From Atribacteraceae bacterium (lineage in GTDB: Bacteria; Atribacterota; Atribacteria; Atribacterales; Atribacteraceae), in the NCBI GenBank assembly GCA_035477455.1, contig DATIKP010000136.1, positions 1 to 39,632 on the forward strand: 39,632 nt of DNA. Reading direction: 5' to 3'. Positions 15,444-19,894 of the stretch are shown here, piece by piece. Positions within the stretch are counted from its first letter, which is position 1; each line of letters opens with the position of its first letter. A program made the position numbers and the translations under genes. The notes beneath the pieces were generated by a model. It was not told where the DNA came from and did no database searches. It worked only from the letters and a program-made list of their open reading frames with translations.

Positions 15444-17921
15444 CTATTTCATACGCAGAGGCAATTCCTCCGACAGTTCCACCGGAATCACCCGGGTAAA
15501 ATTCAGGGTATCGTCATCGGCCAGGCCGACCAGGATACGGTCTCCGGCTTGAAAATTGCCCTTCAGGATTCGATCGGAAACCGGGTCTTCCACCAAACGC
15601 TGAATCGTCCGGCGGAGCGGTCGCGCGCCAAAATTCGGATCATAACCTTCCCGGGCTATTTTGGCCTGGGCTTCTTCGGTGAGTTCGATTTCCATACTCT
15701 GTTCCCGCAGACGCCCTTGTGTTTCTTTCATGAGCAGATCGACAATCTTTTCGATTTCTTCCCGGGTCAGCGGCTTGAAAACAATGATTTCTTCAACCCG
15801 ATTGAGAAACTCGGGAGTGAACGCCCGCCTGACTTCTTCCATCACGTTTCGCTTGATATCCTCGTAGGCAATGCTCTTTTCGGATTTCTCGCCGAATCCG
15901 ATGGAAGCCTGGGAGGTGATGGACCGCGCTCCCAGGTTCGAGGTCATGATGATGATCGTATTTTTGAAATCGATCGCGCGTCCCTGGGCATCGGTCAGGC
16001 GACCTTCTTCCAGAATCTGTAAAAGGACATTGAAGATTTCGGGGCTGGCTTTTTCGATTTCGTCAAACAAGACCACGGAATAGGGACGGCGACGGATCTT
16101 TTCAGTGAGTTGTCCACCCTCCTCAAACCCGACATAGCCGGGGGGTGATCCAACCAGCCGGGAAACAGTGAACTTTTCCATGTATTCGGACATGTCCAGG
16201 GTCACTAACGCTTCTTCCTTACCGAACAAAAATTCGGCCAAAGCCTTGGCCAGTTCGGTTTTGCCTACACCGGAAGGCCCCAGGAAAATAAACGAACCGA
16301 CCGGTCGACGGGGATCTTTCAAGCCGGCTTTCGAGCGGCGAATCGTCCGGCTGACAGCCCTGATCGACTCTTCCTGCCCTACCAGCCTTTTGTGGATTTC
16401 TTCCTCCATTCGGACCAACCGTTCCTTTTCCTCCATAGCCAATCGGGATACCGGTATACCTGTCCAACTCGCCACCACCGAGGCAATGTCTTCCTCGGTG
16501 ACCTGGGGACGCACGGTATCCAGTTCATGAATCCACCCCTCCCGTTGATCGCGATAGGCCTTGCGGGATTTATCTTCCAGATCGCGCAACCGGGCGGCTT
16601 CCTCAAAATCCTGCCGTTTGACCGATATTTCTTTACGCTCCCGGATTTCCTCGATTTCCTGCGCGAGGTCTTTCAGGGATTGCGGTAAGACGGTCGCTCG
16701 CAAACGAACCTTACTGGAGGCTTCGTCCATCACGTCAATGGCCTTATCCGGAAGATAGCGGTCGGAAATATAGCGCTGGGAAAGCCGGACCGCCGCTTCC
16801 AGAGCCTGGTTGGAAATTTCCACCCGATGGTGTTCTTCATAACCTTCCTTGATGCCCTGGAGAATTTGAATCGCTGTATCCACTTCCGGTTCCTCGACAA
16901 AAACGGGCTGAAAACGGCGCTCGAGAGCGGAATCCCTCTCTATGTGCTTACGGTATTCGGTGATCGTCGTGGCCCCGATGGCCTGGAGTTCACCGCGGGC
17001 CAGGGCCGGCTTGAGAATGTTGGCGGCATCGATCGCTCCTTCCGCCGCTCCGGCGCCAACCAGGGTATGCACTTCGTCGATGAAGAGAATGATTTCTTTG
17101 GTATTGGTAATTTCGGAAATAATCTTTTTCAGCCGTTTCTCGAATTCGCCACGATACTTGGTCCCGGCGACGATCGCTGCGAGGTCCAGGCTGACCACCC
17201 GTTTATTTTTCAATGACTCATGGACTTCTCCGTTGTTGATCTTCTGGGCGAGACCCTCCACAATCGCCGTTTTTCCGACTCCCGGCTCGCCGATCAGCAC
17301 CGGATTGTTTTTGGTCCGGCGGCTGAGAATCTGAATCACCCGCCCGATTTCCTTCTCCCGGCCGATGACCGGATCGAGTTTTCCTTTGCGGGAGAGATAA
17401 GTGAGATCCCGGCTGAACTCATCAAGAATCGGTGTCCGGCTCTCCTTCTTGGGGGGAGAGGTACCTCCCGCGGGATCATTTTGGACACTCTCGTTCAGAA
17501 TCTGGGAAAGACGCATTCGGACCGTTTCCAGGTCCACTCCCAAACGCTTGAGGATCTGGGCTCCGACGCCCTGCCCTTCCCGCAGGATCCCCAGTAGGAT
17601 ATGTTCGGTTCCCACATAGTTGTGCCCCAATCTGCGGGTTTCATCGAGCGCCAATTCAAGAACTCTTTTGGCCCGGGAGGTGAAGGCGACTTCCGCCGTA
17701 CCCTGGTACTCGTTGTGCTCAATATAACCCTCCAACTCGTTCCGGACGGTCTCTACGGTGATGTCGAAGCTGCCGAGAATCTTGGCCGCAATCCCTTCAC
17801 GTTCCCGAAGGAGGCCCAAGAGCAGGTGTTCGGTCCCGATATAGTTATGCTTTAAACGAACGGCCTCATCCTGAGCCAGGATAATGACCTTTCGTGCTCT
17901 CTCAGTGTATCGTTCAAACAT
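15444..17921 (-). CDS. clpC: AAA+ unfoldase ClpC
   Basis: 825 residues. Two Clp N-terminal repeats (residues 1-145), first AAA domain with Walker [16 protein letters not shown], a UVR-containing middle domain ([16 protein letters not shown]) that marks ClpC, and a second AAA domain with [17 protein letters not shown]. It feeds substrates to ClpP. The two glutamates that bind phosphoarginine in Bacillus ClpC are conserved (E31 and E106, each in GTEH). A VGF tripeptide ([11 protein letters not shown]) in domain two fits the ClpP-docking loop region, though the exact loop assignment needs an alignment. The start overlaps the mcsB-like stop by eight bases, with GGGGAGGA as ribosome-binding site. 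It is the fourth gene of a CtsR-controlled operon. Confidence 0.97.
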
Positions 17922-18945
17922 TACAGAGTTCCTCCCCAGAAATTACTCCGAAAAAATTCAAGAGCTTCACACATTCTTTTCCCAGAGTACGGTTTCTGGT
18001 TACGATATGCTTAACCAGATTTTTCACTTCTGTGATATTCAAACCTCGACTCCGGACAAATATTCCTTGCTGCCGGGCCAGGACCCAAAGAGAGAAGAGA
18101 TTGAATAATTCTCTTTGAGTAAAATCGTCCATTTCACAAATTCTTTTATACCCGTTGAGCACATTTTCCTCCAGTTGTCTTCTCCGGTCAAGAGAACGGG
18201 CAAGACTCCGGCGAACTTGCCGCTCCCATCTCACGAGACCGCTGGCCAGGCTTTTCAGGCTATCAATAATCGTCCGTTCCGTAATTCCAAGGGTAAAGTG
18301 GTTGGTGATTTGAAAAATATGACCTCGTGCCTCATGGTTCCCCATGGTGTTTTGTTCGATAAAAAAACCTTTATCCCGAAAAAGCTGCATGAGGGCATTC
18401 TCCCCATAGAGAAAGGCCAGGGCAGGAAGATGAATTCGGATCTCCGCCCGCATGCCGGTGCCGCATTCCCGGAGATCGGCGGTCAAATACCCCCAAGTCT
18501 TGTGAAAGGCATAATCGAAATGTGATTCGAGAAAATCGTCAATCCGCTGTGAACGCTGGTGACAGTACTCAAGACGCATTCCGGGAGCGACGGAAAAGAT
18601 TCGAAAATGATCCTGGTCGTTGACGAAAAAGCCAGCATTATTCTTGTGGATTAAGATTTTCCCTGTCTGGAAAGAACCGAAATACGAAGCAAAGAGGCCA
18701 CCGGGAAAGTGGGATGCGAGGTGGGAGAGCGCGTTTATGTCCAATGCCTGACAACGGTAAGCGCGGCGTTTTAGTTGTGTACGATAAAGGAACCGGACTC
18801 GCTCTTCGATATCGTCGAGCCAGATTCGGGAAGCATGGGAGGGAAAGGGGACCCCTGTGAGATTCCGCCGGAGAAACACGCCGGAAAAGAGAATCACGCA
18901 ATCGGATTTTCGTTGAAACAATTTTCCTGGAGAGAGGATATTCAT
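17914..18945 (-). CDS. mcsB: McsB-like protein, guanidino-kinase fold with lost active-site residues
   Basis: 343 residues. Fold and position identify Mcs[33 protein letters not shown] and [12 protein letters not shown] align with the protein-arginine kinase of Bacillus. Key residues differ. The catalytic Cys (C167 in Bacillus, in TSCPTNVGTG) is Asp157; NEEDH reads NDQDH (109-113); the Arg and Glu of VRGIYGEGSEA align with Glu197 and Gly202; SSRIRLARN reads FSGVFLRRN. The C-terminal DIRR-type phosphoarginine site is not seen. It is therefore probably not an arginine kinase and may act as an adaptor or CtsR regulator. Its start overlaps the mcsA-like stop as ATGA. Confidence 0.85.
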
Positions 18946-19253
18946 GGGAGAATCGCCACCCTGAGTTTGTACATCATTTTTTTCAAATAGTCGGCCTTTT
19001 CATAGTTCTGTTCAGCCAGACAACGGATATAATCCTTCTCGATCTTCCGCAGGTCACTCTCGATGATCCTCTTTTTCAACCAGCTTACCGGCGCTCTCCC
19101 CCGGTGAACAGATCCCTTCTGGCACTGTTGCGTCTGAGCGTTCAATAAATCGGAGAACGCCGTGTAACAATTGGCACACCCAAAAGCGCCCGCCCCTTTG
19201 AAATCGGGAATGGGAAGACAGCAAAAACCACACTGCTTATCTTGCTTGAACAT
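18942..19253 (-). CDS. mcsA: Short McsA-like zinc-finger/UVR protein
   Basis: 103 residues, against about 180 in Bacillus McsA. One four-cysteine finger is present (CGFC at the N-terminus and CANC about 20 residues later, within FKGAGAFGCANCYTAF, the typical second McsA finger). The C-terminal UVR-like helix reads DYIRCLAEQNYEKADYLKKM. The first zinc finger of Bacillus McsA is missing and no room for it exists upstream of the ribosome-binding site (AGGG, 19260 region). McsA normally activates McsB and stabilises CtsR; here both partners are reduced. It sits between ctsR and the mcsB-like gene. Confidence 0.85.
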   Translation of the reverse strand: MFKQDKQCGFCCLPIPDFKGAGAFGCANCYTAFSDLLNAQTQQCQKGSVHRGRAPVSWLKKRIIESDLRKIEKDYIRCLAEQNYEKADYLKKMMYKLRVAILP

Positions 19254-19338: not shown

Positions 19339-19827
19339 CTATTCCAACATTTCCTCCTTGAGCACTTGCAGGAGCATTTCTTTCAGGATATTCGTCCTGA
19401 CCATGTTCTTGAAGGCAAACGATGCGTGGGTGTTGTACTGAATGCTTCCCAGGGCGCTGATCATGGCCGCCTTCATCAAGAGGCCTTCCCGGGAGGTAAT
19501 GAATCCCTCCCGTTCCAGCCAGTTGACAATCCCTTCCACATCGGTTTCCCTCAGTTCGGTTTCCTGGCTTTCCAGGTATGACAACACCGGCTCCAGTCGG
19601 TCCATAGGAATTCGAATGATCCGGACATACCCGCTACCCCCCCGCCGGCTTTCAACGATAAAGCCCCGAAACACGTTGAAGCGGGTGGAAAGAACGTAAT
19701 TGATCTGGGAAGGAGCGCAATCGAACTCTTCGGCGATACGCCCCCGTTGTATGGTGATCACATGGTTGGGAGAACTTTCGAGTAGTCCGACTAAGTATTT
19801 TTCAATGGAATCGCATAGCGAGAACAT
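19339..19827 (-). CDS. ctsR: Transcriptional repressor CtsR
   Basis: 162 residues. The N-terminal winged helix-turn-helix reads DSIEKYLVGLLESSPNHVIT then IAEEFDCAPSQINYVLSTRF, with the conserved glycine-rich wing RRGGSGYVRIIRI carrying the DNA-contacting Arg. The C-terminal four-helix domain follows from about residue 85. It represses the clp genes until heat or protein stress. ATG 19827 is chosen: it has GTGAGG upstream, and an earlier in-frame ATG at 19857 lies inside the operator and essentially at the predicted transcription start. It is the first gene of ctsR-mcsA-mcsB-clpC and is clearly autoregulated. Confidence 0.93.
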   Translation of the reverse strand: MFSLCDSIEKYLVGLLESSPNHVITIQRGRIAEEFDCAPSQINYVLSTRFNVFRGFIVESRRGGSGYVRIIRIPMDRLEPVLSYLESQETELRETDVEGIVNWLEREGFITSREGLLMKAAMISALGSIQYNTHASFAFKNMVRTNILKEMLLQVLKEEMLE

Positions 19828-19845
19828 GGCCCTCACCGTCCCGGT

Positions 19846-19862
19846 TTTGACTATCATTGACT
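19846..19862 (-). promoter_or_regulatory. CtsR operator
   Basis: On the minus strand AGTCAAT-GAT-AGTCAAA matches the CtsR heptad direct repeat (RGTCAAA, three-base spacer with central A, RGTCAAA) with one mismatch. It covers the predicted transcription start and lies 19 bases before the ctsR start codon. Confidence 0.85.
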
Positions 19863-19865
19863 TTT

Positions 19866-19894
19866 ATAGTACTGGTTTAAAGGCCTTCTGTCAA
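19866..19894 (-). promoter_or_regulatory. Promoter of the ctsR operon
   Basis: A perfect -35 TTGACA (19889-19894) lies 17 bases from TACTAT (19866-19871). The -35 overlaps the lysS stop codon, so the stress operon has its own promoter inside the end of the housekeeping gene. The start point falls near 19859, within the CtsR operator. Confidence 0.75.

Follow-up and report, generated by a model that had tools for sequence, protein, structure and literature searches.

A probable McsB pseudokinase retained in the ctsR operon of an order of Atribacterota

The mcsB-like gene and its operon

The 39,632 bp stretch of Atribacteraceae DNA analysed here (the window) encodes a homologue of the protein arginine kinase McsB, a stress enzyme that in other bacteria tags damaged proteins for degradation. 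A preliminary description of this stretch had claimed that the protein has lost its active site while its gene is kept in an operon. The locus raises the question of whether such a McsB could still phosphorylate arginine and, if not, what it would be kept for. The comparison covered 25 genomes of the window's own order of uncultured bacteria, Candidatus Atribacteria/Caldatribacterium (Atribacterota), 24 of them with a McsB, and 20 genomes with a live McsB from a second lineage of Atribacterota (families f5 and f7, presumably JS1), called the sister lineage below.

The mcsB-like gene, located at positions 17914–18945 on the minus strand as first described, is a real gene of 343 codons, recognised by profile match, alignment and an AlphaFold2 model. 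The protein matched the PF00217 profile at 1.8e-33 and the full-length McsB models of NCBIfam at 1.7e-44 to 2e-25. These models covered much of the protein with scores of 90–152 bits, for cut-offs of 381–679, and the equivalog cut-offs were missed (152 bits versus 385; 133 versus 500). Among PDB sequences, the solved McsB structures were the best matches.

The gene order in the window is lysS-ctsR-mcsA-mcsB-clpC, which bears out the assignment of mcsB to a ctsR-mcsA-mcsB-clpC operon. All of the operon genes are on the minus strand. The ctsR repressor gene, as called, covers 19339–19857 (PF05848, 4.8e-31, and PF17727) and clpC covers 15444–17921. The mcsA-like gene at 18942–19253 encodes 103 aa and was recognised by alignment and by a match to positions 75–166 of the 182 of the NCBIfam McsA profile. 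In its product, the C-terminal zinc finger (CxxC..CxxC) and a UVR-like tail are still present, and the N-terminal zinc finger is missing. This finger is also lost in genus g2, L039 and L043, and most other members of the order have both fingers.

Loss of the active site residues

The window McsB was aligned directly to the solved McsB structures 6fh1, 6tv6 and 8wtb, and in a multiple alignment with more than 60 homologues. The equivalence of positions rests on this family alignment and on what is established for phosphagen kinases. The alignment to structures and relatives proposed as a check in the preliminary description upheld every loss listed there. In the numbering of Bacillus subtilis McsB, the catalytic C167 corresponds to D157 (codon at 18475–18477, minus strand). 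The motif NEEDH reads NDQDH, with Q111 in place of the second Glu of NEED. In VRGIYGEGSEA, R207 is replaced by E197 and the lid Glu of GEG by G202, and SSRIRLARN reads FSGVFLRRN, with R29 replaced by G22 and R31 by F24. Three arginines absent from the first description are retained: R34 (R27 in the window McsB), R125 (R115) and R176 (R166). The C-terminal segment carrying R337 and D338 has no counterpart.

The window McsB is consequently devoid of the catalytic Cys, of both guanidinium-binding Glu, of three of the five phosphate-binding Arg and of the C-terminal phosphoarginine (pArg) receptor. It retains two of the eight residues of the catalytic set, defined as the Cys, the two Glu and the five phosphate-binding Arg. 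In B. subtilis McsB, each of the substitutions R29K, R31K, R34K, R125K, R176K, R207K and R337K abolishes kinase activity in vitro, and the C167S protein is kinase-inactive (PMC7235348). Five of these residues (R29, R31, R207, R337 and C167) are gone from the window McsB. In a transition-state model of Limulus arginine kinase the guanidinium group is held by Glu225, Glu314 and Cys271 (PMC11075012), and the equivalents of all three are missing. Judged from its sequence, the window McsB is very likely a pseudokinase.

Distribution of the degenerate form in the order

The losses extend to the whole order. The 24 McsBs keep 0 to 4 of the eight catalytic residues, as compared with eight in every full-length sister copy. 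The catalytic Cys, the second Arg of SSRxR, the lid Glu and R337 are each absent from all 24 proteins, the Cys being present in all 20 sister McsBs. The C-terminal pArg receptor motif RDxxRA is also absent in 24 out of 24. The PF00217 scores form two disjoint ranges, 85–130 bits in 24 of the 25 genomes of the order versus 204–242 bits in the 20 sister genomes. An error in one genome or an artefact of metagenome assembly was rejected, as 24 genomes agree and two of them (G005 and G012) consist of a single contig, which counts against misassembly.

The McsBs of the order form one clade in the McsB tree, with a support of 99. This is most simply explained by a single loss followed by long retention, so that the pseudokinase, on the sequence evidence, would most simply have a single origin in the common ancestor of these bacteria. 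The catalytic residues are lost and the gene is intact and constrained across this clade of 24 genomes. The window McsB fails the defining tests of a protein arginine kinase and should not be annotated as such. Genomes annotated with a "protein arginine kinase" may be without arginine phosphorylation. In the literature searched, which left out subscription papers, no description of McsB pseudokinases was found.

The order McsB might alternatively still be an enzyme, a divergent guanidino kinase or another phosphotransferase using different residues. The PF00217 fold is intact, and in the window two arginines of the phosphate site, Arg115 and Arg166, are kept. Three histidines (His113, His172 and His209) are invariant in the family. 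In addition, R176 is present in five members, the NEED Glu in three and R125 in eight, and L055 retains four of the eight catalytic residues. Some of these proteins possibly have a residual nucleotide binding. However, no conserved acidic or thiol residue takes the place of those lost at the guanidinium site, and arginines that are each essential in B. subtilis have given way to residues such as G, F, E, K and S. Together with the absence of a YwlE-type phosphatase, described below, this makes a surviving enzymatic activity improbable. Profile searches returned one PF00217 match per genome in the order and no second guanidino kinase; on the same ground, we rejected the idea that the genome of the window encodes another, live guanidino kinase.

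Absence of the arginine phosphatase

Low-molecular-weight (LMW) phosphatases (PF01451) were found in all 20 sister genomes with a live McsB versus one of the 24 genomes with the degenerate form. The P-loop of the YwlE type, CTGNTCRS or CAGNTCRS, was present in 18 of the 20 sister genomes and in none of the 24. We take the Thr position of this loop to be the site that gives YwlE its preference for pArg. A single residue is known to determine the YwlE-type preference (PMC5506225). The two remaining sister genomes, G032 and G046, have an LMW phosphatase of the arsenate-reductase type only. In the genome of the window (G000) the profile search found no LMW phosphatase. The single candidate of the order, in G023, was rejected as a YwlE because it is a fragment at a contig edge and reads as the arsenate-reductase type. 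The GTEH motifs of the ClpC N-domain, which are pArg sites, are retained in both lineages and are accordingly uninformative on the use of pArg.

The reading of a McsB pseudokinase kept in an operon was supported, and more strongly than first claimed, by an order-wide distribution, the absence of a YwlE-type phosphatase and, as shown below, purifying selection.

CtsR, its operator and the coupling to clpC

CtsR (PF05848) was found in 24 of the 25 genomes of the order, exactly those with a degenerate McsB, and in none of 25 other genomes of the phylum; this correlation, like that with YwlE, stems from one evolutionary split and counts as one event and not as 24 independent ones. The ctsR-mcsA-mcsB-clpC operon was present in every locus of the order long enough to show the gene order, and the sister lineage has mcsA-mcsB-clpC without ctsR. 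The RGGSGY loop of CtsR is nearly invariant across the order. In G006, ctsR is split by a frameshift into two PF05848 pieces with an ambiguous base (L032:2870-3376), probably an assembly error.

A predicted CtsR operator, AGTCAATGATAGTCAAA, is located at 19846–19862 (minus strand). It is a direct repeat of a heptad with a 3-base spacer, and lies just downstream of a predicted promoter, read from the sequence as TTGACA, 17 bases and TACTAT (19866–19894, minus strand). Equivalents of the operator were seen upstream of ctsR in nearly all members with sequence reaching there, and in most members a TTGACA/TATAAT-type pair precedes it. The called ctsR frame begins ten codons early, and the operator falls in the stretch 19827–19857. 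The true start is probably at position 19827 (MFSLCD...), as suggested by its conservation across the order.

The AGTCAATGATAGTCAAA pattern had a single perfect match in the genome of the window, at the operon's own site, and the reversed control pattern had none. With a CtsR protein and a heptad operator ahead of it, the operon has the sequence features of a CtsR regulon member. The genome-wide search for the regulon gave, besides this site, three sites with one mismatch. One of them (L136:1501-1517) is situated where a lon-like gene ends, approximately 90 bases upstream of grpE-dnaK, and is only a lead to a possible second member.

The clpC frame starts before mcsB ends, with an overlap of 8 bases between start and stop (ATGTTTGA, 17914–17921, minus strand). 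The ribosome site of clpC, GGAGG, is located within mcsB, and the arrangement indicates translational coupling. The overlap was exactly 8 bases in 23 out of 23 loci of the order, and it sets the conserved C-terminal Val of these McsBs. In the sister lineage the two genes are mostly apart and the fixed overlap was not seen. ClpP was found in all genomes of the order. This close link to clpC could indicate that the pseudokinase is mainly a ClpC partner or a chaperone adaptor similar to MecA, delivering misfolded proteins without pArg tags, with CtsR as a passenger of the operon. The ClpC-side features just described, including the retained GTEH sites, agree with such a role. So do the partial adaptor function of the kinase-inactive C167S protein in B. 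subtilis (PMC7235348) and the persistence, in other lineages, of degenerate McsBs without CtsR. Nevertheless we consider it unlikely, as within the phylum the distribution of CtsR is exactly that of the degenerate McsB, and the loss of the pArg receptor takes away one of the routes to tagged substrates.

Constraint and predicted fold

The reading frame is open in all 24 members. The dN/dS ratio had a median of 0.14 (range 0.066–0.511; 30 pairs, both gene ends trimmed). The dN/dS comparison proposed in the preliminary description shows purifying selection. The ratio was 0.085 for the sister McsBs, and the dN of McsB relative to that of ClpC was 4.8 in the order versus 1.7 in the sister lineage. 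The constraint on the order McsB is strong, yet about threefold looser than that on the live kinase. The 23 invariant columns are distributed over the whole protein. The McsA-docking loop YA[FY]xxxxG[YF]L is conserved, and the GTG and HLPAL core is retained as in the McsB arginine kinases.

The AlphaFold2 model of the window McsB had a pLDDT of 81 and a pTM of 0.79. In Foldseek its best match was McsB 6fh1 (TM 0.73 over 340 columns), which suggests that both McsB domains persist in spite of the loss of the pArg receptor. This predicted structure, together with the PF00217 match, agrees with the earlier remark that the landmarks of the fold are kept.

These results bear on whether mcsB is decaying, or retained only because its end drives the translation of clpC. 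The location of the clpC ribosome site within mcsB, the C-terminal Val fixed by the overlap and an evolution faster than in the sister lineage are what one would expect in such a case. The open frames, the low dN/dS obtained with both ends removed, the spread of the invariant residues and the full-length McsB fold of the model argue the other way, and we regard decay as very improbable.

A model for a non-catalytic McsA-McsB module

In B. subtilis under thiol stress, oxidation of the second zinc finger of McsA releases McsB, which then inactivates or removes CtsR while its kinase is off (PMC5506225; PMC7235348). In Staphylococcus aureus the C-terminal zinc finger of McsA contacts McsB at the loop that immediately precedes the catalytic Cys (PMC12467219). 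The order McsB shares with the McsB arginine kinases of B. subtilis, Geobacillus stearothermophilus and S. aureus (PDB 6fh1, 6tv6 and 8gqd; NCBIfam NF053707/NF002194) the full-length fold, the ctsR-mcsA-mcsB-clpC order and the McsA-docking loop. It differs from them by the absence of the catalytic Cys and Glu, of the RDxxRA receptor and of a YwlE-type partner. The resemblance to the kinase-independent roles of Bacillus McsB (CtsR release and C167S adaptor function) lies in the proposed binding of the partners McsA, CtsR and a Clp ATPase. In Bacillus these roles accompany an active kinase, whereas here they would be the sole function.

The sequence itself shows the lost residues, the selection, the gene content and the operator, and the fold is a prediction. 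The best reading would be that the order lost McsB/YwlE arginine phosphorylation and has retained McsA and McsB as a module without catalysis, linked to CtsR and to ClpC. From the retention of the McsA zinc finger, the docking loop, CtsR with its operator and the coupling to ClpC, we infer a module acting by binding only and controlling CtsR, which may deliver CtsR to ClpCP. We think it rather likely that the module is linked to CtsR. The role of pure adaptor or CtsR partner put forward in the preliminary description would fit, by analogy, the co-occurrence with CtsR, the intact operator and the kinase-independent roles in Bacillus (PMC7235348, PMC5506225).

In the model that we propose, McsB would not phosphorylate arginine, McsA and McsB would still form a complex, and the module would work through binding. 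In the unstressed cell, McsA would hold McsB. Oxidation or heat disruption of the McsA zinc finger would free McsB, which would take CtsR off its operator or hold it off. McsB would then pass CtsR to the co-translated ClpC, and degradation by ClpCP would derepress the module's own operon.

Several observations fit this CtsR-linked module less well. Bacillus McsB reportedly requires its kinase activity for the ClpC adaptor function (PMC5506225), and the constraint in the order is looser than in the sister lineage. Some members keep R176, the NEED Glu or R125, and the degenerate McsBs of another phylum, described below, occur without CtsR and with LMW phosphatases. In Bacillus the kinase and the CtsR or adaptor roles are hard to separate because one protein does both. 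An order possessing only the non-catalytic part, in which CtsR and the operator are intact and the phosphatase is missing, amounts to a natural separation-of-function experiment. Bacterial protein pseudokinases of other folds, such as serine/threonine pseudokinases (PMC12599244), likewise combine catalytic loss with a retained fold and conservation, but their fold (Hanks type) is unrelated to the phosphagen kinase fold of the order McsB.

Degenerate McsBs outside the order

In the phylum of G052 (L137–L152, 17 genomes), three families have McsBs without the Cys, NEED and SSRxR, as in the order, and family f41 keeps all eight catalytic residues. The mcsA gene adjoins mcsB in these relatives as well. 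Unlike in the order, CtsR was not found in the 17 genomes, LMW phosphatases are still present, and the proteins, an independent set, have a separate place in the McsB tree. CtsR binding is hence not the general reason for keeping a degenerate McsB. A Chlamydiae metagenome-assembled genome (L085:2-1030, JAJFMB010000277.1) encodes a McsB with none of the eight residues (ANPKMCGT, NVQNH). Chlamydial McsB has been described as an arginine kinase (PMC11708050); this sequence suggests that it may not be one.

We tentatively propose that the two ancestral jobs of McsB were split between the sister lineages, one having the live kinase and the phosphatase without CtsR, and the other CtsR and a kinase-dead, redox- or heat-gated anti-repressor that acts purely by protein binding, without the phosphatase. 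At least one other phylum, and possibly the Chlamydiae, would have McsB pseudokinases of separate origin. If such separate origins are true, the presence of McsB cannot be read as the presence of arginine phosphorylation.

In four McsBs of other lineages, L033, L029, L042 and L038, Ser replaces the catalytic Cys. These proteins are divergent, yet they retain most of the catalytic Arg and Glu, with 7, 7, 5 and 7 of the eight residues kept, respectively.
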